The translations under genes were made by a program, and so were the position numbers. From NCBI RefSeq assembly GCF_003479425.1, contig NZ_QUHC01000006.1:150743-214742 (forward strand): a stretch of DNA of 64,000 nucleotides, written 5' to 3'. The notes under the pieces are model-generated. The model did not search any database. It was given only the letters and a program-made list of their open reading frames with translations, and was not told the DNA's origin. This stretch comes from Odoribacter sp. AF15-53 (GTDB lineage Bacteria; Bacteroidota; Bacteroidia; Bacteroidales; Marinifilaceae). Shown here piece after piece: positions 1 to 55,750 of the stretch (position 1 is its first letter; every line of letters begins with the position of its first letter).

Positions 1-179
1 AATTTTTATATTTGTGCAATAATTGAACGTTTTATGCGACAGGGAAATGAGGGTAAATTATAATTCCAGCTTCTCTTTTCAAATTTATAAGACGTTGATT
101 ATAAGACATCGAATAAAAAAGATGTACATTTACATACAAATATCAATAAACGTTCAATTATTGCACAAATATAAAAATT
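1..179. repeat. 32-bp perfect inverted repeat with 115-bp spacer
   Basis: Bases 1-32 are the exact reverse complement of 148-179. The left arm could extend beyond the window. Each arm contains TATATTTG (7-14 on +, 166-173 on -), a perfect match to the Bacteroidota -7 box TAnnTTTG, pointing into the spacer. The spacer is AT-rich and has no convincing ORF. The arrangement could be an invertible segment, a small palindromic element or a pair of convergent promoters. The sequence alone does not decide between these. Confidence 0.8.
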
Positions 180-23851: not shown

Positions 23852-25252
23852 TTATAATTTCACATAACCTTCATTTTGAATCATTCCCGGAATCAAATCT
23901 ATATCCTGGGAAGGAATAGGGGCAGTATACATGAATTGTTGGGTTTCATATTTCAATCCATCCTTGGCACACCAGAATTCCGGACATCCATTTCGTTTCA
24001 ATTCAAACCAACGGTCACCTTCCATGAATAACTCTTTCCGCCGTTCACAATGTATTGCCCACAACAACGGAGTGAAAGCATTCCCTTCCGCATTTATACG
24101 AACCAAGGCATACTCGTCCACTGCCGGCAAATTACCCATCGTGTAAGGCGTGTAACCAGTTATTCGTTTCGAGCGCAACAAATTCAAGTAATCAAGAGCC
24201 TCCTTCGTCTGGTTCAAATAAGCATGAGATTCCGCCAAAATCAAGCACATTTCAGCACTCCTGACACAAGCCATCGGTATTTTCAACGCCTCCCGTTTAG
24301 CATTAAACGAGAACGCGTAACGAACATCCCTTTCTTTCTCCTCAAATAAATCTATAAATCGCTTACTTACCGGCTTCACGGGTAGATACCCTTTTGCACT
24401 ATTGTAATTCACGTCTCCACTTGAGCTTGTCAACAAATAAGATCGTAAAAGGACATTGCCTTGTTGAGCATATCTAGCCGAAAGCATATCCGTATACACG
24501 GCCCCTTCCACCAACGGGTAGGCATCCAGAATCTCTTTCGCGACAGGGATAGCCTGTTCCCAATTTTGAGTCCAGAAATACAATCTTGCCAAATAAGCTT
24601 TCACGACATCCTCGGTATAGCGATAAATTTCCGATTTCGAATGATAAGAAATCGCCTTCTTGAAATCTTCTTCTATAAGAGTGGCGACCTCCTTCAAACT
24701 TGAGCGTTTCGGACGGGCCTCCATATCAAAACGAGTCACGATAGAAAGTCCCAACTGCTCTTCTGCCTTCTCTTTATTATAAGGTTCACAGAAAAGACGC
24801 ATCAGATTATAGTAAGCGACTCCCCTCATCGCGTAAGCCGTGGCATAACATGATTTTGCCAAATCCGTATCACTCTCTTTCATTTCATGAATGACCAGAT
24901 TACAATTTCTTATCAATGAATACAATCCACGATATTCCATCCTGAATGAATTCAACCGATCCCCGACATATTTAGGAATTGCACCCATCCCGGTTACATT
25001 CCTTGTCAGACTATTCTCCACGTTATCCCCGAAACATTCCAATTCAAATTTCTCCATGGGATTTCCCAGTATAGCCTCATCATACCCCTCGTCAATTTCA
25101 TTCAGATGACTATTCAACAGAGCCCCGAACTCTTCCGCTGTTTTCGGGATCACTTCCCCCTTAGGTTTTACATCCAAGTATTCTTTACAAGAAACACATG
25201 CAAAAAATACGATTAATACCAAACTTATATTCTTCATATTCTTCATAATCAC
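23852..25252 (-). CDS. SusD/RagB-family nutrient-binding lipoprotein, uptake system 1
   Basis: 466 residues. Lipobox CVSC (Cys22), then KEYLDVKPKGEVIP, the classic SusD start. TPR-type helices follow (YATAYAMRGVAYYNLMRLFCEPY about 135-160, VVKAYLARLYFWTQNW about 220-235), and the C-terminal RagB block holds ERRKELFMEGDRWFELKR. SusD proteins cap the SusC barrel on the cell surface and hold the ligand. It starts 5 bp behind susC. It is shorter than the system-2 SusD (492). Confidence 0.95.
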   Translation of the reverse strand: MIMKNMKNISLVLIVFFACVSCKEYLDVKPKGEVIPKTAEEFGALLNSHLNEIDEGYDEAILGNPMEKFELECFGDNVENSLTRNVTGMGAIPKYVGDRLNSFRMEYRGLYSLIRNCNLVIHEMKESDTDLAKSCYATAYAMRGVAYYNLMRLFCEPYNKEKAEEQLGLSIVTRFDMEARPKRSSLKEVATLIEEDFKKAISYHSKSEIYRYTEDVVKAYLARLYFWTQNWEQAIPVAKEILDAYPLVEGAVYTDMLSARYAQQGNVLLRSYLLTSSSGDVNYNSAKGYLPVKPVSKRFIDLFEEKERDVRYAFSFNAKREALKIPMACVRSAEMCLILAESHAYLNQTKEALDYLNLLRSKRITGYTPYTMGNLPAVDEYALVRINAEGNAFTPLLWAIHCERRKELFMEGDRWFELKRNGCPEFWCAKDGLKYETQQFMYTAPIPSQDIDLIPGMIQNEGYVKL

Positions 25253-25257
25253 GCAAA

Positions 25258-28200
25258 TTAAAAGCCTAAACTAAGTCCAAATGAACAAGAACGAGCCAAC
25301 GGGTAAGTTGCACCGGGAGTTTCCGGGTCTAACCCGGAATAATTCGTTATCGTGAACAAATTTGTCAGTATAAACGAAAAACTCAAGGAAGAAATACCCA
25401 TTTTTTTCACCACATCTTGAGGGACCCCGTAAGACAGCGACATGTTTTTCACCCTCAAGAAAGAAATATTCTCCAACATAGATGCACGTGTAATCGTACT
25501 CGAAGTTGGATAAATCTGATCAAAATAAAAACGCCCCCCGTATGTATCCATTATCCTGGGATATTTCACCCCCGTTTTCCGGTCCTCGGTCCAACGATTC
25601 ACGGCATCCTTCCGGACATTCAAGTGATTTACATATAGATCATTTTCACTCGTTGGGATTTTTTCACCGGCAGAACCGCTTCCACTTAAAGTGCTGTAAC
25701 TTACCGGACATTTAATCTCGTCGACCACCTTGCCTCCTAACGAATACGCTCCTCCAATATTCAACGTGAAAGTCTTGTATGAAAAATTAAAACTAAAACC
25801 ACCGGTAACAGGAGCGGTCGAAGTTCCCCGATAATATATATAATTATTCACGTCACTCAAATCTTCCGGCTTCAAGATATCGGCATCCGGACGCAATTTA
25901 TACTTGTAGAGCCCGGTTTCAGGATTTATTCCCGCCGGTTTTCCTGCAAAAATAGCATCCAGGGGATAACCGACAAAATTACTCGTCTGGTATGAAATCG
26001 GGGAAGTATATCGCTTCAACACGTTATTATTCCAAGCCACATTCACGGAAGCATTAAACTTGAAATCCTTATACCTGAAAACAAGAGCCTGCAACGTTGC
26101 CTCGACACCTTTATTTTCAATCTGTGAAGTATTATATCCTTGTCCATAAAATCCCGTCATGTAAGGAACATCTACCCCCGTGACAAGATCCTTACTCAAC
26201 CGGTAATATGCCTCGAACAGCCCGTTGATCCGGTTATCAAACAATCCAAAATCCAAAGCGATCTTCATATCCCGCGTCTTCTCCCAGCGCAAACGCGGGT
26301 TAGGCGCTTTCCTTACCTCTCCGATCCTGAGACTTTCGATATCCGTTTTTCTATAAGCCGTGGAATAATACATGATCAACTCCGGCTTTTCAGTCTTGTT
26401 CACATTCCCGGTATATCCCATGGCCAAGCTCAACTTCAAACGACTCAACACGGGCTTCAAGCTTTCCATGAAAAACTCATCCCCGACATGCCAAGCCAAA
26501 CCCAAAGACCACGTCGGATTAAATTGCTCGTCACTACCAAAATTATTTGAACCATCCGTCCGGAAAGAAAGGCTCGTAATATACTTATCATACAATATAT
26601 AATCCAGCGAAGCATAAAACGACGCGAAACGCGACTCTTCTATTGATTGCAGGGTTAACCCGTCAATAAAATTAGACATATCGACCAATCTACCATAATC
26701 CACCTGATCACTTTTCTGTTCCGGGGCCGGAGTTGACGCGTTGCCCGTCACCGGATCATAACCATAACGTTTCGCGGTAAGAGTTTTACCCTTGGAACCG
26801 CGCAGTTCCGCTCCCGCTAAAACAGACACCCGATGTATGGAATTAAATATATCCGAATAACTGATCTGTCCCCTCGCGCTATAATTCGTATTATTCGATG
26901 ACATTTGAGTGATAGAACCGTAAGTTCTCCGGCTATTCCAATCGTCCAATTGGCTCGGTTTATCACTAAAAGCCGCATACGTGTCCGGACCATTAATATT
27001 CTCCGACTTATTATTAATAAAATTATAGGAAATCATCCCGGAGAAACGGAATTTCGAAGAGATCGTGTAGTTCAAATTTAACATCAGATTAGCAGAAAAA
27101 TCTTCCGCAACACTGGAAGTTTCATTAATCTCCCGCATAACATTATAGCCATTAGCCGGCAAAATTGCCTCCCTTCCCCCATTAATCTGGTTCAGATTAT
27201 AATACGTGTAATCCGGGCGATACGATCCGTCCTCGTTATACGGTTTCTCGTAAGGATTAGCGAAATAAGCATATTGGAAAGGATTCACATTCAAAGAGGA
27301 ACCATCTGATTTCTGTTGTGACAGATCAACGCCGAAATCCACGGACACCCGTTCATGGGGCTTCAAATTCACCTTCGTGGACACGCTATAACGATCGTAA
27401 GAAGTTTGTCGTAATATCCCGTTATCCTTTGAATAACCGAAAGAAAGATAATAAGTGGCCATATCAGAACCTCCCGACAAAGAAAGATAATGATTCATAG
27501 AAAAAGAGGTCCGGAACAATTCATCAAACCAATTGGTCGTCGTCTTCGACAAATCGGCAATATAAGCATCCTGTTCCGATGCACTCATCGGCTCGAAATC
27601 CTCGTCCGTCCAGACCTTCCCGTCTTTCCCCAATTTATTGGCACGCAGCATCCCGACAATGCCAACTACCGGGTAATAAGTTCCGTTCGTAAACCCGTCC
27701 GCCGAGAAATCATCCCACAACTCCTGTTCCCAGGCCAACTTTTCTTTCGAATTCATTAAATCTCCATCCCGTTGAGGCTTCATGACCATCGAGAAATTAG
27801 CTGAATAACTGATCGCCATTTTCCCGACCTTTCCTCTCTTCGTCGTGACAACAATCACCCCTCCAGCCGCTCTCGACCCGTAAATTGCCGCAGCCGAAGC
27901 ATCTTTCAGTATAGTTATACTCTCGATATCATTCGGGTTAATCCCCGCGATCCCGTTAGCAAAAATATCATTAAAATCCCCCGCTTTTATTTGTCCTTTT
28001 TGTATACTCGGGATATTTCGTTGCAATGGAACCCCGTCAACCACCCACAACGGTTCGGCATCCCCCGAGAGCGTGTTGGTCCCCCGAATTCGAATCTTGG
28101 CTGATTCTCCCGGCCGCCCTGATTTTGCCACGATGCTAACACCGGCCACCTGTCCTTGTAACAATTGTTCTATCGAGGTAGGAACCTTGTTCTCGAAAAC

Positions 28201-28878
28201 TTCCTTGCCAACCACGGCCACCGAACCGGTCGTTCTCTTTTGAGTCGTTTGAGAATACCCGGTAGAAACAATCACTTCATCCAGTTGTCCCACAGACATT
28301 TTCAGCACCACGTTTACACTCGTTTCCGTCCCCGTCAATTTGACCTCCCGGGTCTCCATCCCGATAAAAGAAAATAACAAAACATGATATTCCTCCGGCA
28401 TATTCAACGTAAAATTCCCGTTACCATCGGTTGATACCCCGATTGCCGTTCCCTTAATCATCACGGTGACACCCGGTAATGAATTTCCATCCTCATCCTT
28501 TACCTGCCCCTTGATCACCTTGAACTTCTGGCTTACCCCCTCCTGCGGAGCCTTCTCCAACAGGATAATCCGATCCTGAATCCGATGTCGTAAACCCGTT
28601 CCCTTCAACACCTCTTTCATCGCACTATCCAAAGAAACCTCCTTTACATCAACAGATATCCCCCCGACATCTTTCACAAATTTCTCGTTGTAAATAAAAT
28701 TGTACCCGGATTGTTTCTTGATTTCTTCAAGCACTTTAACCAGTTTCTCGTTCGTCACCCTTAAGGTAATCTTTTCCGGTGACCCACCTGCCCAAAGAGT
28801 GCCCGATGCAAATAACAGCAGCATCAAAAATGCACAACTCTTGTTGAATTTCCTGAAAAAAAACTTTTCTACCATCAT
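25258..28878 (-). CDS. SusC/RagA-family TonB-dependent transporter with STN domain, uptake system 1
   Basis: 1206 residues. A signal peptide (to about 30, TLWAG) precedes an STN/secretin-TonB N-terminal domain (about 36-105, ITLRVTNEKLVKVLEEI) that contacts FecR. A carboxypeptidase-regulatory-like domain (about 118-200, VIKGQVKDEDGNSLPGVTV), a TonB plug (about 210-340, DEVIVSTGYSQTTQKRTTGS, IRIRGTNTLSGDAEPLWVVDGVP) and the 22-strand barrel ending SFGLSLGF follow. The STN domain plus adjacent FecR and ECF sigma shows surface-signalled induction. A hairpin overlapping the fecR stop sits 40 bp upstream, possibly lowering read-through. Confidence 0.96.
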   Translation of the reverse strand: MMVEKFFFRKFNKSCAFLMLLLFASGTLWAGGSPEKITLRVTNEKLVKVLEEIKKQSGYNFIYNEKFVKDVGGISVDVKEVSLDSAMKEVLKGTGLRHRIQDRIILLEKAPQEGVSQKFKVIKGQVKDEDGNSLPGVTVMIKGTAIGVSTDGNGNFTLNMPEEYHVLLFSFIGMETREVKLTGTETSVNVVLKMSVGQLDEVIVSTGYSQTTQKRTTGSVAVVGKEVFENKVPTSIEQLLQGQVAGVSIVAKSGRPGESAKIRIRGTNTLSGDAEPLWVVDGVPLQRNIPSIQKGQIKAGDFNDIFANGIAGINPNDIESITILKDASAAAIYGSRAAGGVIVVTTKRGKVGKMAISYSANFSMVMKPQRDGDLMNSKEKLAWEQELWDDFSADGFTNGTYYPVVGIVGMLRANKLGKDGKVWTDEDFEPMSASEQDAYIADLSKTTTNWFDELFRTSFSMNHYLSLSGGSDMATYYLSFGYSKDNGILRQTSYDRYSVSTKVNLKPHERVSVDFGVDLSQQKSDGSSLNVNPFQYAYFANPYEKPYNEDGSYRPDYTYYNLNQINGGREAILPANGYNVMREINETSSVAEDFSANLMLNLNYTISSKFRFSGMISYNFINNKSENINGPDTYAAFSDKPSQLDDWNSRRTYGSITQMSSNNTNYSARGQISYSDIFNSIHRVSVLAGAELRGSKGKTLTAKRYGYDPVTGNASTPAPEQKSDQVDYGRLVDMSNFIDGLTLQSIEESRFASFYASLDYILYDKYITSLSFRTDGSNNFGSDEQFNPTWSLGLAWHVGDEFFMESLKPVLSRLKLSLAMGYTGNVNKTEKPELIMYYSTAYRKTDIESLRIGEVRKAPNPRLRWEKTRDMKIALDFGLFDNRINGLFEAYYRLSKDLVTGVDVPYMTGFYGQGYNTSQIENKGVEATLQALVFRYKDFKFNASVNVAWNNNVLKRYTSPISYQTSNFVGYPLDAIFAGKPAGINPETGLYKYKLRPDADILKPEDLSDVNNYIYYRGTSTAPVTGGFSFNFSYKTFTLNIGGAYSLGGKVVDEIKCPVSYSTLSGSGSAGEKIPTSENDLYVNHLNVRKDAVNRWTEDRKTGVKYPRIMDTYGGRFYFDQIYPTSSTITRASMLENISFLRVKNMSLSYGVPQDVVKKMGISSLSFSFILTNLFTITNYSGLDPETPGATYPLARSCSFGLSLGF

Positions 28879-28923: not shown

Positions 28924-28960
28924 AAGAGATTAGGATAAGACCAATTAAGCCTAATCTCTT
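28924..28960 (-). terminator. Hairpin overlapping the fecR stop, between fecR and susC (system 1)
   Basis: Perfect 11-bp stem AAGAGATTAGG/CCTAATCTCTT with a 15-nt loop; the fecR stop codon (28951-28953) lies in one arm. The T-run is short on the minus strand. It may be a leaky attenuator setting the fecR:susC ratio, or an RNA-processing site. Confidence 0.65.
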
Positions 28961-30114
28961 TTCTTTTGTACATAGACTATTTTGCGTTCCACTTTAAATG
29001 ACACGGAGGTTGATGACTCTATAACCGACAACAGGGATTCCAACGAAACATCACGCGAGAGATCACCCGTGTAATACTCTTCTTCAAACATTTGCTCCCG
29101 GATAATCGTCACGTCATAATACCGGGAAACCCGCTTCAATATCTCCGTCAACGAGGCATTCCTGAAACTGAAATTACCCTCTTTCCACGCGGTGTAATGT
29201 TCCACATCACATTTCGACACCTGAATTCCGGCCCGCACGTCATGCATATTCACTTTCGCGATATCACCCGGAGTTATAATCCGGGACTCCCCCTTCCCGG
29301 CAAAAACCTCCACGAGTCCTTCCACCAGAACCACGTAACTCATTCCCTCATCCTCGTATGTATTTATATCGAACGTTGTCCCCAGCACTTTCACATCCAT
29401 CCTATCCGTACTCACGATAAAAGGCCGGGCCGTGTCCTTGGATACTTCAAAAAAACCCTCCCCGTGCAGGCTCACCTCACGTTTACCCTTACCAAAAGAC
29501 ACGGGATATTTTATTCTTGAATCAGCATTCAACCAGACCTTTGTCCCGTCAGAAAGGACCAAATGATAAAACGTTCCCTTGGGCACTATCAACTCGTTAT
29601 ACTCCAACTCTCTTTCCCGTAGAGAATCCGCCCGGGTATATTCCAGACGTTTCCCCTCGTAAAGCTTCGCCCCCTGATCCAATTTCACTTTTCCTTTCTG
29701 GGGATTCGAGATATCCACCGTCTCCCCGTTCGCCAGCACCAGAGAAACATTATTTTGTTTTCCCTGTTCGGCCAACACGACACGCTCGTCTTCAGACGGT
29801 TTTATCCAAAGCCATAACGCACCCGTGATCAACAAACAAACACTCGCCGCAACCGACACGGACATCCTGACACGTCTCTTCTTCCGAGATTGTAAATCCT
29901 TGAAATTATTCCACTTCCGGTCAACATCTATTCCCTCGTAACGATTCTCTAATTCGTCTACATTTATATTTTGTAAACTCGAAAAAATACGCTCCCGTTT
30001 ATCAGATTCACCACGCCACGTATCCAATTGATCACGCTCCGAATCATCTAGCCCGACAACTCGTTCTTTACAGATCAACTTGGCAACAAACAAATATCTA
30101 CTTATCTCTTTCAT
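28951..30114 (-). CDS. FecR-family anti-sigma factor, uptake system 1
   Basis: 387 residues. The cytoplasmic N-terminal part (1-80) should hold the ECF sigma. The single transmembrane helix is at about 83-105 (RMSVSVAASVCLLITGALWLW, in part). The periplasmic FecR domain (about 175-270) carries the signature LSDGTKVWLNADSRIKYPVSF, split here as LSDGTKVWLNADS and RIKYPVSF. A C-terminal STN-like DUF4974 domain (about 315-385) ends it. It passes the signal from the SusC STN domain to the sigma factor. It lies 70 bp behind the sigma gene. Confidence 0.95.
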   Translation of the reverse strand: MKEISRYLFVAKLICKERVVGLDDSERDQLDTWRGESDKRERIFSSLQNINVDELENRYEGIDVDRKWNNFKDLQSRKKRRVRMSVSVAASVCLLITGALWLWIKPSEDERVVLAEQGKQNNVSLVLANGETVDISNPQKGKVKLDQGAKLYEGKRLEYTRADSLRERELEYNELIVPKGTFYHLVLSDGTKVWLNADSRIKYPVSFGKGKREVSLHGEGFFEVSKDTARPFIVSTDRMDVKVLGTTFDINTYEDEGMSYVVLVEGLVEVFAGKGESRIITPGDIAKVNMHDVRAGIQVSKCDVEHYTAWKEGNFSFRNASLTEILKRVSRYYDVTIIREQMFEEEYYTGDLSRDVSLESLLSVIESSTSVSFKVERKIVYVQKKRD

Positions 30115-30184: not shown

Positions 30185-30742
30185 TTATTTCACCACGGCA
30201 ACAAGTAGCAATAAATGTTCTAACGATTTATACAATTCCCTATAGGCAACCGATTTATGAAATTTTACAGTTGTTTCCGTTATTCCCATTTCCTCGGCAA
30301 TCTCTTTATTTTTCTTTCCTTCCAAGTGCAATTTTATAACGATTTGTACTTGAGGCGTCAAAGTTTTAATCGCCTTATGAATCAAAAAACGACTCTCCTC
30401 ATCTATAATCGACTGCATCAAATAGTCGTTAGTCTCATGTTCCCCGGAATGTTCACTAGAATAACGTTCTTTTATTTTTTCATGCCGGATGTAATCCAAA
30501 CACTTGTTTCTAAGCGTCCGGTACATGAATGCTTGCAAGGTGACTTCCGAATCAAAAGTCTTTAAATACTTAGACCACACCACTATAAAAGCCTCTTGCA
30601 CGATATCCTCCCGCACGTACGGATCATCAATGAAGCGAGAAGTAAAAGCATTAAATTTCGGGAAATTCTCTTTAAAAAAGTGCTCAAACACAAGCACTTT
30701 TCCGTCTGAAAATTTAATATATTCTTCTCGCTCTCTTACCAT
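30185..30742 (-). CDS. ECF RNA polymerase sigma factor, uptake system 1
   Basis: 185 residues with the start chosen at MVREREEYIKF (30742), because AAAAAAGGA sits 8 bp before it as a ribosome-binding site. An in-frame ATG at 30775 would put the first residues inside the inverted-repeat spacer. Region 2 includes VREDIVQEAFIVVWSKY (promoter melting and -10 contact) and LQAFMYRTLRNKCLDYIRH. Region 4 is EMGITETTVKFHKSVAYRELYKSL, a helix-turn-helix. It is probably held by the adjacent FecR protein. Its start codon directly abuts one arm of a 20-bp perfect inverted repeat, which may make expression phase-variable. Confidence 0.94.
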   Translation of the reverse strand: MVREREEYIKFSDGKVLVFEHFFKENFPKFNAFTSRFIDDPYVREDIVQEAFIVVWSKYLKTFDSEVTLQAFMYRTLRNKCLDYIRHEKIKERYSSEHSGEHETNDYLMQSIIDEESRFLIHKAIKTLTPQVQIVIKLHLEGKKNKEIAEEMGITETTVKFHKSVAYRELYKSLEHLLLLVAVVK

Positions 30743-30905
30743 TAAACGATCCTTTTTTGATCTTTTACATTTCAAAGAAGAATGTTAATATTTTGATTGT
30801 GAAGAAAAATTAAGTAATTGATAATTAGGTCGAGCTAAAAAGTATTATCTTTGAAATAACAAAGAATTATTTCTTAATTCAAGAGTCAAAAAAGGATCGT
30901 TTAAT
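30741..30905. repeat. 20-bp perfect inverted repeat flanking a 125-bp promoter-like segment
   Basis: Left arm 30741-30760 (ATTAAACGATCCTTTTTTGA) is the exact reverse complement of 30886-30905. The left arm supplies the ribosome-binding site of the ECF sigma gene. The right arm lies just behind the stop of the S9 peptidase. The spacer carries one perfect -7 box, TATCTTTG at 30846-30853 on the plus strand, pointing away from the sigma gene. Inversion would turn it toward the gene with a leader of about 45 nt. Confidence 0.85.
30846..30853 (+). promoter_or_regulatory. -7 promoter box TATCTTTG inside the inverted-repeat segment
   Basis: 8/8 match to TAnnTTTG. In the present orientation it directs transcription into the 3' end of the peptidase gene (antisense). 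No equally good box faces the sigma gene; the best is TACTTTTT on the minus strand. TTG at 30818-30820 is 25 bp upstream, longer than the usual 19-21. Confidence 0.45.
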
Positions 30906-30910
30906 CATTA

Positions 30911-33202
30911 TCAATCAATATTTTCCATATCTACACTATTTAGCCTATCTCCCAAGAGATTTTCAACAAAATAATACCGGATAAGATTCACGTAGTAGGG
31001 TGTCCCCAATCCGTGATCCGCCCCGGGAATAATCATCATATCGAAGCGCTTGTTAGCCTTCATCAAGGCATTCGCCAAACGAATCGTGTGAGCCATGTGC
31101 ACGTTGATATCCATATCCCCGGTAATCAACAACAACCGCCCCTTCAAATTCTTGGCTAATTCAATATTAGTCGGGATCTTGGATTCGAACGAATACTCCT
31201 TTTGTTCTTGTTTTCCCGTCTTCTTCTCATGCATCTTCACGCCGTGATAAGTTTCTCCCCACCACTTGGTATATATATTATTATCGTGATTACCGGAAGC
31301 CGCAACCGCCACTTTATAAAAATCCGGATAAGTCAAAATCGAGGCCGCAGCCATAAAACCACCCCCCGAATGCCCGTAAATCCCCACCTTATCCAAATCA
31401 ATAAAAGAATAACGATCTGCCAACTGTTCGATCACGAACTTACAATCCGCCAAAGCGTAATCCCGCAAATTTCCATACCCGAAATCATGAAATTCCCGTC
31501 CCCGGTTAAGGCAACTTCCCCGGAACCCCACGTTAATCACGATAAATCCCAACTGAGCCAAAGACTCGTTTCCATTATCATCCAACGTGAAAGACTGAGG
31601 CACGTAATTCTCCTGCGGTCCGGGGTACACGTTCACGATAATCGGGTATTTCCGGGTGGTATCCATATCAAACGGCCGGTACATCACCCCGTAGAGATCC
31701 GTGATACCATCGGCGGCCTTCACCTTAATCCGCTCCGGTTTTTTCCATCCCATCTCGTACAACAACCGCAAATCGGGACTTTCCAGCGTCATGATCTTTT
31801 TACCTCTCGTATCTCTCAACTCGGAAACAGGCTCCAGGTCCACCCGTGAATAATTATCAATCAAATACTTCCCGTTCTTGGCCAGATCAATAGAATGATA
31901 TCCATCACCCGGGGTCAATAACGTAAAACCGGAACCGTCAAAGTTCACCTTATAAAAAAAACGGTATTCCGGATTTATCCCTTTTTCCCGTCCATACCCT
32001 TCAAACACGAAATTACGTCCCACGGTATCCAACATCAAAATCCGGGAAGCGACAAAATTCCCGTCCGTCACTTGATTTTTCAATTTCCCGTCCTTATTAT
32101 ACAAGTAATATTGTCCCCAACCGGAACGCTCCGACCACCACAGGATATCCTCGCCTCCATTCAAGATACGACACTCGAACAACTGCTCCGTGAAATGCGG
32201 TTCACAACGTTCGTGAATAATTTCGAACACCTCTCCCGTGCGTGTATCCACCCGGCAAAGATCCATCTCGTCACACGTCCGGCTCTTCCGGGTAAAATAA
32301 ATATATTCCGGATACTTATTAAAATCAAAAAGCAGCACTTTCACTTCCTGATCCGGGTATTTGGCAATATCGACAACCTGATGCGATTTATTCCCGGCAT
32401 GAAATAAATGCAAATCATACGTGTAAACATACTTATCACCGGGCATCGGGAATTTATACGTTCTCAATGTCGGACGGGGCTCTGCCAAATGATCTACCAG
32501 ATATCCCTCCTCCACGTTCCGGCGATCCTGGCGCAAACAATAAAACACCTTAGAGTCACCCGACCAGGTAACTGCCGCCCCCTCCTTTTTCCCCGTATCC
32601 TTATCTCTCTGGAAAGAGTAAGAATAATAGCGCTCTCCGTCTGTTGTTAACTGATGAGAAGTCGTGTCCCCTTTTTCCTGCAAATACACGTTATGCTTGT
32701 AGGCGTAAACCATATAATTACTATCCGGCGACCAACGTTGCCAATAAGGAGCTCGGTTGAAACTACTTGTCACTTTTTCTCTCGTAAATTCTTTCAACTC
32801 CCCGCTCTTCACGTCATACACGAAATCCTTACCGTACTTGGAAAACATCAACCGATAGGGATTATTCCCCTCGAAACGGAATCCTCCCAATTTCAAATCC
32901 CTGGCATTCTCAACTTTCCCCGTCAGTTCTGCTAACTTCGCCGCCAACCGTTCTGCTGAAAATAATTCCTGTTTCTTTCCTTTTTTAGCATCCACCAGAT
33001 AATAAACCGTCCCGTCATTGGTCGTGTAATAATACCAGAAAAACTCAGAATTTCCGATCCACGAGGGATAAATCGACAAACCGTGAACATACTCGGAAAG
33101 ATTACGTTCGGAATACTTGGCACAAGCCTTAAAATCCGCCTTTTGAGCGAATACACCACTCCCCAGCAAGAGGAGCAGCATACATACAATACTTCTCATC
33201 AT
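30911..33202 (-). CDS. S9-family serine peptidase (DPP IV-like), exported
   Basis: 763 residues. The start was set at MMRSIVCMLLLLLGSGVFAQ (33202), giving a clean signal peptide; the longer ORF adds 17 unlikely residues. An N-terminal beta-propeller (about 50-490; units such as PYWQRWSPDSNYMVYAY and AAVTWSGDSKVFY) precedes the alpha/beta-hydrolase domain. The catalytic triad is visible: Ser612 in GHSGGG, Asp in LITGDMDINVH, His in IPGADHGLG. Dipeptidyl peptidases of this type release dipeptides from N-termini. It stands directly upstream of the sigma-FecR-SusCD set on the same strand and suggests a peptide substrate for system 1 (inference). A -7 box TACTTTTG lies at 33276-33283. Confidence 0.93.
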   Translation of the reverse strand: MMRSIVCMLLLLLGSGVFAQKADFKACAKYSERNLSEYVHGLSIYPSWIGNSEFFWYYYTTNDGTVYYLVDAKKGKKQELFSAERLAAKLAELTGKVENARDLKLGGFRFEGNNPYRLMFSKYGKDFVYDVKSGELKEFTREKVTSSFNRAPYWQRWSPDSNYMVYAYKHNVYLQEKGDTTSHQLTTDGERYYSYSFQRDKDTGKKEGAAVTWSGDSKVFYCLRQDRRNVEEGYLVDHLAEPRPTLRTYKFPMPGDKYVYTYDLHLFHAGNKSHQVVDIAKYPDQEVKVLLFDFNKYPEYIYFTRKSRTCDEMDLCRVDTRTGEVFEIIHERCEPHFTEQLFECRILNGGEDILWWSERSGWGQYYLYNKDGKLKNQVTDGNFVASRILMLDTVGRNFVFEGYGREKGINPEYRFFYKVNFDGSGFTLLTPGDGYHSIDLAKNGKYLIDNYSRVDLEPVSELRDTRGKKIMTLESPDLRLLYEMGWKKPERIKVKAADGITDLYGVMYRPFDMDTTRKYPIIVNVYPGPQENYVPQSFTLDDNGNESLAQLGFIVINVGFRGSCLNRGREFHDFGYGNLRDYALADCKFVIEQLADRYSFIDLDKVGIYGHSGGGFMAAASILTYPDFYKVAVAASGNHDNNIYTKWWGETYHGVKMHEKKTGKQEQKEYSFESKIPTNIELAKNLKGRLLLITGDMDINVHMAHTIRLANALMKANKRFDMMIIPGADHGLGTPYYVNLIRYYFVENLLGDRLNSVDMENID

Positions 33203-33275
33203 GTCTAATACATTTTGCGTTCTACATAAGAACGATCTCACGGTAAAGACCAATAAACCATGAAACCGTTTGCCT

Positions 33276-40798: not shown

Positions 40799-40914
40799 TA
40801 CTAATTATACAACCACGAACATTTGCAAGACAAAAATGAGATCCTCCTTTCCAGATTTATTTATTAAACACCAAACACTTAACAGTGCACACACTTAAAA
40901 TAAAAAATATTATC

Positions 40915-41058
40915 TAACGATCCTTTTATTGTATCCATAAATTTACTCTCTGGACAACAAACCCCATTTTTCATTTCTCGTTAATTATTAAACACTTACG
41001 TGATTTGATAATTTTATCATGAGCATTTATATTGACTAATCAAAAAAGGATCGTTTAT
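40915..41058 (+). promoter_or_regulatory. Orphan copy of the sigma-fecR regulatory block
   Basis: The left end (40915-40950) matches 54460-54495 at 30 of 36 positions, including TAAATTT. The right end (41024-41057) matches 54568-54601 at 29 of 34, including TTTATATTGAC and AAAGGATCGTTT. The interval between them differs by one base. The start codon position reads ATTG instead of ATG, so no fecR can be translated. It is a relic of a lost sigma/FecR operon. Confidence 0.75.
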
Positions 41059-41180
41059 TGGAGTTTAAATTTAGACAATTAAATCAAAAAAATCAATGAA
41101 AAAGCTACATTATTATCTTTATCGCCCCAAGAAAACCTATTTTACTCATTTCTCCTTGACAATAAATATCCTATAAAACA

Positions 41181-54400: not shown

Positions 54401-54459
54401 TTCAACCGTTTTTCAATTTTTCCTGTATTATAGGTGCAAAGATGAAAGGAGATGTTATT

Positions 54460-54601
54460 TAATGATCATTTTATTATATTCATAAATTTGCTTTCCCATC
54501 TATAATTTCATTTTCAACATATCGCTAGTTATTAGCTATTTGCACATTCCGATGATCTGATCTTGATCCTTTATATTGACCTATCAATAAAGGATCGTTT
54601 T
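54460..54601 (+). promoter_or_regulatory. Sigma-fecR regulatory block with second promoter and RBS hairpin
   Basis: The block has a perfect -7 box TAAATTTG (54483-54490), then ends in a 13-bp hairpin (54565-54596) that buries the ribosome-binding site AAAGGA (54589-54594) of fecR. It recurs as an orphan at 40915-41058. Both ends carry AAYGATC-type sequence in opposite orientation, a weak relative of the inverted repeat at 30741-30905. Confidence 0.65.
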
Positions 54602-55750
54602 ATGATAGACCAAGATGACATCAATTTATTAGACTATATTAGCGGAGAACTTCGTGAGGAAGAGAGAGAAGAGGTCTTGAAATGGATCGAATCGAGTATA
54701 GAGAATCGGGTCTATTTTGAACAATTCCGGCAGAATTATTTAAGCATGAGATGGGGTACGAGAAGTTCGCTCGTAAAAGGAGAGTTCCCCCAGATCAAAC
54801 AACGACTCCAACGGCATAAAATCATGCGTTATATTGCAAGATGTGCTGTTGCAGTGGTCATTCTTTCCGTGGGAGGTCTAGGTGTTCATTCGCTCCGTCA
54901 GGAAAGAGAAATTACAACTGTTCAGCAACCCATATCTTCCATCTCCCCGGGTAGTTCACGAGCGTATTTACAATTATCTTCCGGTGAGATTGTTCCCGTT
55001 TCAACCGAAGAAAAGATATTGAAAGAAAAAGGAGGAACTTCCATCACGATCAGTAGTGCCGGAGAAGTCCTTTATCATGTCCGAGATAGCCTCGTGGAGG
55101 TTGCGGACGAAGTGTTCAATAAATTGATTGTTCCTAGGGGAGGTGAATTTGTCGTGACATTGGACGACGGGACAAGAGTATGGTTAAATTCCGGCACGGA
55201 ATTTCGCTACCCGACAAATTTCGTCACGGAACAAAGAGAAGTTTATTTAAAAGGGGAAGCCTATTTTGACGTGAAACGCGATACGACTCGTCCTTTTGTC
55301 GTCATAGTGAATGATTGCGCGGTCAAAGTGTACGGGACACAATTTAACATCAACACGCATAAAGAAGGAGTAATACAAACCGTACTCGTGTCGGGCAATG
55401 TGGCATTTAGGAAAGGAGACGAAGAATTCAGGTTACAGCCCGGAGAAAAAGCCGAATACTGGAAACACGAGGGGAAGGTGGAAGTAAATCAAGTTGACGT
55501 GTCTTCTTATATCGCTTGGAAAGATGGGACTTTTATCTTCGAGAACGAGTCACTGGAAGATATCATGAATACGCTTTCCCGATGGTACGACGTGGATGTG
55601 TTCTACACGAGTCCGGAAGCAAAGCGAGTTTACCTGACCGGAAAAATGAAGCGTTATAAAGATATTCAGGAGCTCTTGTACTTCTTTGAACGCATCTCCG
55701 ATGTGAAATTTACAATAAAAGGAAAAGTTATAACAGTGAGTGAAAAATAA
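54602..55750 (+). CDS. FecR-family anti-sigma factor, uptake system 2
   Basis: 382 residues with the start at MIDQDDINLLDYISGEL (54602), preceded by AAAGGA 7 bp upstream; the longer in-frame ORF from 54563 includes the RBS hairpin and is unlikely. Cytoplasmic part 1-75, transmembrane helix about 76-96, FecR domain (about 180-270; LDDGTRVWLNSGTEFRYPTNF in part) and the C-terminal DUF4974 domain (about 315-382, SLEDIMNTLSRWYDVDVFY). It passes the SusC signal to the sigma factor. Confidence 0.95.
   Translation: MIDQDDINLLDYISGELREEEREEVLKWIESSIENRVYFEQFRQNYLSMRWGTRSSLVKGEFPQIKQRLQRHKIMRYIARCAVAVVILSVGGLGVHSLRQEREITTVQQPISSISPGSSRAYLQLSSGEIVPVSTEEKILKEKGGTSITISSAGEVLYHVRDSLVEVADEVFNKLIVPRGGEFVVTLDDGTRVWLNSGTEFRYPTNFVTEQREVYLKGEAYFDVKRDTTRPFVVIVNDCAVKVYGTQFNINTHKEGVIQTVLVSGNVAFRKGDEEFRLQPGEKAEYWKHEGKVEVNQVDVSSYIAWKDGTFIFENESLEDIMNTLSRWYDVDVFYTSPEAKRVYLTGKMKRYKDIQELLYFFERISDVKFTIKGKVITVSEK

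Follow-up and report, generated by a model that had tools for sequence, protein, structure and literature searches.

In gut Bacteroidales, surface polysaccharides and outer-membrane proteins are known to be controlled by invertible promoters. Serine invertases of the Hin/Gin type act at short dyad sites that have a 2-bp core, and serine invertases impose a 2-bp core rule. In the FecI/FecR-SusCD family, the sigma factor drives the SusCD promoter.

Among invertible promoters the capsule promoters of Bacteroides fragilis offer the closest comparison. Here a single serine invertase, Mpi, is credited with 13 regions, seven of which are capsule promoters (PMC4747536, PMC5903667), and the classical capsule arrangement consists of an invertible promoter upstream of upxY (PMC13114119, PMC12632263). 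Two other B. fragilis promoters, IVp-I and IVp-II, are attributed to the tyrosine recombinase BF2766/Tsr19, and their inversion alters outer-membrane traits. The published account places an ECF sigma gene, BF3407 of an IVp-II-related region, among the genes up by over 4-fold in the ON/ON mutant alone, yet it is BF3397 and not BF3407 that lies directly downstream of IVp-II, and disruption of BF3407 left BF3397 expression unchanged (PMC4747536). This is a precedent for inversion-dependent expression of an ECF sigma gene, although it involves a tyrosine recombinase and a sigma gene that is not directly downstream, unlike the locus described here. DNA inversion also diversifies SusCD expression in the SusC/SusD shufflons of B. 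fragilis; these shufflons reportedly invert at the SusC/SusD clusters by another recombinase (Tsr0667), whereas in the present locus it is the promoter region of a regulator that is inverted.

No description of an invertible promoter directly before an ECF sigma gene was found in the literature searched, which was in part available as excerpts and did not extend to the 2003 Mpi and 2009 SusC/SusD invertase papers; in the main text of two inverton papers (PMC11892184, PMC10939037) sigma, FecR and Butyricimonas are absent. Invertible promoters under one serine invertase are known, and the placement directly before an ECF sigma gene appears to be new, with a prior description being possible.

The inverted repeat and its genes

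The DNA analysed (the window) is a stretch of 64,000 nucleotides from Odoribacter sp. AF15-53. As an earlier note on this DNA had claimed, two 20-bp arms that are complementary at 20/20 positions enclose a 125-nt spacer ahead of an ECF sigma gene. The near arm (30741..30760) is composed of the half site ATTAAACG, the core AT (30749-30750) and the half site CCTTTTTTGA; the far arm (30886..30905) has its core AT at 30896-30897 and lies 5 bp from the end of a peptidase gene. The ATG of the sigma gene occupies 30742-30740 on the minus strand, and its A and T come from the near arm, which covers the first two bases of the start codon and the ribosome-binding region. The arm is thus at the start codon as had been stated, but overlaps it rather than abutting it. 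The motif AAAAAAGGA just upstream of the ATG belongs to the near arm, and the proposal that the arm supplies the ribosome-binding site is borne out.

The putative switched gene (30185..30742, minus strand) encodes an ECF sigma factor of 185 aa with the Pfam domains Sigma70_r2 and r4_2 and a match above cut-off to NCBIfam TIGR02985. Downstream of it on the same strand lie genes for a FecR-type anti-sigma/sensor (28951..30114; Pfam FecR and FecR_C), a SusC/RagA TonB-dependent outer-membrane protein (25258..28878; TIGR04056) and a SusD-like lipoprotein (23852..25252; Pfam SusD_RagB), and this order, ECF sigma, FecR, SusC, SusD, is the arrangement of a FecI/FecR-SusCD system. The upstream gene, also on the minus strand, encodes an S9/DPP-IV-type peptidase (30911..33226, with the longest ORF beginning at 33253; Pfam DPPIV_N and Peptidase_S9).

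The invertible segment is placed at 30761..30885 on the basis of its opposite orientation in two related genomes and the same orientation in a third (see below); if a serine invertase acts, it would run from core to core, 30749-30897. Within it there is a sole perfect TAnnTTTG box, TATCTTTG (30846..30853, plus strand), situated 42 bp from the core that it faces. TAnnTTTG is the Bacteroides -7 consensus (PMC4747536). The box is directed away from the sigma gene, as previously noted, and the window copy is accordingly designated OFF.

Perfect inverted repeats of at least 20 bp with spacers of at most 300 bp were absent from 30 Markov-simulated 64-kb sequences. In the window, 14 start positions of such repeats were found, one from the sigma-gene repeat and 13 from a 32-bp repeat at 1..179. 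The latter marks another element with this type of site, which has perfect 32-bp arms (1-32 and 148-179) and the cores AA/TT. The TAnnTTTG box inside this element faces left, TATATTTG can be seen by eye at 7-14 in the outer arm, the next gene on the right (520-1752) encodes a sigma-54 activator, and the arm may extend past the window edge. Two further regions of the window are alike by eye and may be decayed or divergent switches: 40910-41060, where a diverged arm motif at 41040 (one mismatch) has a weaker partner upstream, and 54459-54605, where a diverged arm motif at 54584 (two mismatches) also has a weaker partner upstream and the ATG of a FecR gene (54602) lies just beyond.

The locus in Butyricimonas

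The comparison set consisted of six Butyricimonas genomes (G002 to G007, of which G003 is a metagenome-assembled genome, MAG). The sigma-gene locus is present in five of these (G002-G006) and was not found in the sixth, G007. The flanks of the window locus are 74-80% identical to those of the five genomes, which indicates that the window comes from a further Butyricimonas species or a close relative. The near arm is identical at 20/20 positions in all five and, as in the window, reaches into the start codon of the sigma gene in each of them; the far arm is conserved at 20/20 positions in G003, G005 and G006 and at 19/20 in G002 and G004. For the inner segment, identity to the window is 75-78% in G003, G004 and G005, which also have the same box at the same 42-bp distance from the core, and lower in G002 and G006.

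The 21-mer formed by the arm and the ATG was recovered from four genome-contig stretches. Ca. Butyricimonas faecavium accounts for two of them and Butyricimonas sp. Marseille-P3923 for a third; the fourth, L001, belongs to a different MAG, stands before an unrelated gene with no partner arm, and was treated as a chance occurrence. The viral contigs searched had no exact match to the 21-mer, and phage records had no match to window positions 30700-30950.

Orientation of the segment

The earlier note had named beforehand, as grounds for abandoning the idea of a switch, that related genomes never have the inverted orientation. The switch withstands this check: the box points toward the sigma gene (ON-type orientation) in G003 and G005 and away from it in the window and G004. 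When aligned with the window, G004 scored 131.0 in the same orientation and 66.5 inverted, whereas the inverted orientation was favoured for G003 (151.5 versus 52.0) and G005 (148.0 versus 53.5), and the top shuffled score across these comparisons was 82.5. Flank-anchored z values were 11.1 for window and G004 (same), 16.0 for window and G003 (inverted), 14.9 for window and G005 (inverted) and 23.4 for G004 and G003 (inverted). Counted on the G005 copy, the gap between box and ATG after inversion would be about 50 nt; the normal leader that had been anticipated stands, with the distance slightly adjusted from the roughly 53 bp first given. The orientations of the two remaining genomes were not taken as decisive: for G002 the alignment weakly favours the ON orientation of G005 (z about 3-4) and its single perfect box faces away, and in G006 (L146) a near-palindromic inner segment of 102 nt, which has no perfect box, leans to the G005 orientation. 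The near-palindrome of L146 would render both orientations nearly equivalent.

A tree of the flanks gave (window, ((G004,G003),(G005,G006)), G002) with support of 100, and a clade of window and G004 was rejected (delta lnL 124). Since the OFF orientation is found in both the window and G004, this tree requires at least two flips, and one flip separates genomes whose flanks are 91% identical. Inversion between species is well supported by these sequence comparisons, and inversion within the strain of the window is presumed.

Opposite orientations were also observed for another sigma-linked pair, L121/L144, in G002 and G007 (inverted z 6.8 versus -1.1), whereas three other sigma-linked groups with two genomes each (L099/L124, L103/L129 and L094/L134) have one orientation only, and the comparison of L101 with L132 is ambiguous. 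The ortholog of L103/L129 in the G003 MAG is split: contig C1 ends and C22 begins at the inner arm edges, and the inner segment of this ortholog was unmatched between C1 and C22. This is circumstantial, being the outcome that is expected of short-read assembly where both orientations coexist, and it concerns a different element, as the ortholog of the window locus is intact in G003. The G003 contig ends at inner arm edges are C1:341732, C22:1 and, going by the dyad matches only, C45:2, and breaks of this kind could serve to spot active invertons in short-read genomes.

A putative genus-wide recombination site

The arms represent one form of a genus-wide 20-bp dyad made up of a half site, a 2-bp core and a half site. 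With up to three mismatches, the six genomes have 17-34 dyad matches each, near-palindromic copies being counted on both strands, and reversed controls have 0-3. Pairs of sites separated by 100-150 bp in the central part of the fetched loci were tested, and 57 of 62 had complementary cores (AT/AT 39, AA/TT 13, TT/AA 5), compared with a permutation mean of 29.8 and a maximum of 42 in 10,000; the half-site score ignored the core, some loci were first chosen by a pattern with an AT core, and orthologs are not independent. The core rule was tested on these unfiltered 62 pairs because the set of 57 elements used elsewhere (55 loci and the two elements in the window) is prefiltered, in that it contains complementary-core pairs only. 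Five of the 60 fetched loci (L097, L112, L114, L130 and L141) have no site pair and were left out of the 57, and ten further regions examined with a looser site score, which yielded pairs in L199, L200, L201, L202 and L204, are outside all counts.

The spacing between site centres peaks at 137-140 bp and is 147 bp in the window element. A box at 13-15 bp from the core is present in 31/58 elements, where simulation gave a mean of 0.36 and at most 4 in 500 runs; for a distance of 40-52 bp the count is 12/58, against a simulated mean of 1.47 and a maximum of 6. The former spacing is a feature of the commonest subclass in this set and not a published defining rule; the window element does not have it, its own box being at 42 bp. 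Simulated segments carry a TAnnTTTG box in about 12/58, so that the box taken alone is weak evidence. The window arms have their site halves in the reverse arrangement to that of the other elements, and the exact 20-base arm is also present in a G003 element before a FecR gene (C3:160726). The reversed-arm pattern turned up in a single one of the 295 genomes that were sampled across the order, namely G003; G004-G006 lay outside the sample. A family-wide pattern search gave matches in at least 29 of 56 genomes, with 4-14 in each of the six Butyricimonas genomes; outside Butyricimonas, among the matches listed, only G018 (5) exceeds 3, and as reversed-pattern controls reach 8, no claim is made for genomes outside Butyricimonas.

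By a k-mer test the inner segments are non-redundant in 42/58 elements. Nearly identical inner promoter segments are encountered between some different loci (L095 versus L107, and L102, L104, L107 and L127; z 26-33), as if promoter cassettes move between elements, and L095, one carrier of the shared segment, precedes a FecR gene.

Candidate invertases

A recombinase had been sought near the segment; none of the tested types occurs within the 64-kb window, and the enzyme would thus act from elsewhere. By alignment, every Butyricimonas genome of the set (six in all) encodes a pair of related serine recombinases about 200 aa long. Identity among the six genomes is 96-100% for the first type and 81-100% for the second, and 56% between the types; G006 encodes a third relative (L155). 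Four of the invertase proteins scored 249.9-271.6 bits against the NCBIfam model "master DNA invertase Mpi family", below its cut-off of 272. The first type shares 59% identity with a protein that bears the name Mpi, and by sequence the invertase resembles the solved DNA-invertases 4m6f and 3uj3. Unlike the Hin/Gin systems, the Butyricimonas system combines an unlinked invertase with numerous sites and a self-complementary AT core.

Genes beside the elements

Counting from the starts of the longest ORFs, 17/57 elements, including that of the window, have an ECF sigma gene that is directed away from the element and whose start lies no more than 100 bp from the near core. After the addition of L004, L129, L132 and L145, where the sigma gene had been missed by ORF picking or the locus was added later and the link was confirmed by alignment, 21/58 elements are sigma-linked, and by reading these fall into 11 locus groups. 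Arms of the same type do stand before other ECF sigma genes in the genus, a point that the earlier note had proposed to check, and they also precede capsule-type genes. In three more elements the gene that starts there is FecR, and in another three it is a SusC-type ORF, that of L096 being only a 454-aa piece; in several groups the arm overlaps, by eye, the start codon of the sigma or FecR gene. Of the representative neighbours of elements that were tested, two encode NusG-like proteins of the kind seen in UpxY-type capsule regulators; the others were a DUF3575 protein, an aminotransferase, a glycosyltransferase and a response regulator, or gave no match. The sigma family model has 90-150 matches per Butyricimonas genome (six genomes, E up to 0.001), and despite this abundance sigma genes are judged to make up a few per cent of genes.

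One element, L098 (G005, C1:352745-352880), is flanked by an ECF sigma gene and a FecR gene that are read in divergent directions, and inversion there could choose between sigma and anti-sigma transcription. Two metagenomic resolvases with a sigma-like tail, P0216 and P0217, were set aside; they are possibly chimeric assemblies, and their tails are 62-71% identical to the C-terminus of the window sigma factor.

Proposed mechanism and alternatives

We consider it very probable that the segment is an invertible promoter of the Mpi type that is flipped in trans and gates the sigma-FecR-SusCD system. The element would be an unusual form of such a promoter, with reversed arms, a box 42 bp from the core and a sigma factor as its target. 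It resembles the Mpi capsule promoters in having inverted arms around a short promoter segment, and the B. fragilis system likewise has many loci served by one unlinked invertase; some Butyricimonas elements of the same site family also precede NusG-like, UpxY-type genes (two representatives). It differs from the capsule promoters in the ECF sigma gene downstream, the arm over the start codon and the AT core, as well as in the 42-bp position of the box and the turned-round site halves.

In the proposed mechanism, a trans-acting Mpi-type serine invertase would cut the 2-bp AT core of each arm and flip the segment; the match of the Mpi-like enzymes to the arm sites is presumed. In the ON state the TATCTTTG promoter would be directed at the ECF sigma gene and give a leader some 45 nt long, and in the OFF state, as in the window copy, TATCTTTG would point toward the end of the peptidase gene; the box is a presumed promoter of the sigma gene. 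The sigma factor would be made in only some cells, and this would gate the sigma-FecR-SusCD system, since FecR releases only sigma factor that has already been made. Inversion may in this way switch the SusCD operon. Read-through RNA from the peptidase gene would hold both arms and could fold into a 20-bp hairpin; as the arm contains the ribosome-binding region and the start codon, such RNA is predicted to hide the start site, and the hairpin would keep the OFF state tight. In the predicted fold (-41.1 kcal/mol, z -2.1) the ribosome-binding region and the start codon are within the 20-bp stem, with a stability only moderately better than that of shuffles (6/200 equally stable), and in the predicted G005 ON leader AAAAAAGG and the AUG are unpaired. 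These models point to a possible RNA lock on the sigma start site.

The predicted 20-bp stem, which covers AAAAAAGGA and the start codon, would also fit an inverted repeat that acts only as RNA, sequestering the sigma start site, with no inversion in living populations and with the orientation differences as old fixed events. The far arm being just 5 bp from the peptidase gene end, and the single orientation of three sigma-linked groups (two genomes each), lend themselves to the same explanation. RNA pairing, however, needs neither a shared 2-bp core rule nor a promoter box, and there are at least two independent flips at the locus, one of them between genomes with 91% identical flanks; together with the complementary cores and preferred spacing of the genus-wide set and the assembly of a sister element that breaks exactly at both arm edges, this makes an effect through RNA only quite improbable.

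Inversion could also be real and the sigma gene not its main target, the outcome being antisense RNA into the peptidase gene, made from the box in the orientation of the window copy, or a sigma gene driven by read-through and an unrecognised promoter. This we regard as unlikely given the sigma genes beside such elements in 11 locus groups and the arm that extends into the start codon of the sigma gene in the window as in all five orthologs, even though the box of the window copy is directed at the 3′ end of the oppositely oriented peptidase gene and imperfect boxes toward the sigma gene are possible. Similar arms many times per genome, and inner segments common to several loci (L102, L104, L107 and L127), might recall a miniature mobile repeat with terminal inverted repeats that was inserted either way round. 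Such an origin is very hard to credit, as the orthologous position is kept while the orientation changes, and the arms are alike with 42/58 inner segments non-redundant, which is the reverse of a mobile family.

Implications

With the invertible promoter as the favoured explanation, single cells probably turn this nutrient-uptake system on and off by chance. A promoter switch directly before a sigma factor would put a regulator that responds to signals under a DNA switch set at random, and such a switch could diversify whole uptake systems between sister cells. A broader proposal, which is put forward tentatively and may well prove wrong, is that the Mpi-type invertase pair randomly arms many different ECF sigma-FecR-SusCD systems (the six genomes and the window together have at least 11 locus groups), with the arms doubling as RNA locks against read-through translation. 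In view of the number of sigma-family matches per genome, the reach of this control could be wide. If the proposal is true, signal sensing would work only in cells in which the DNA switch is set, and each cell would have its own set of usable nutrient sensors.
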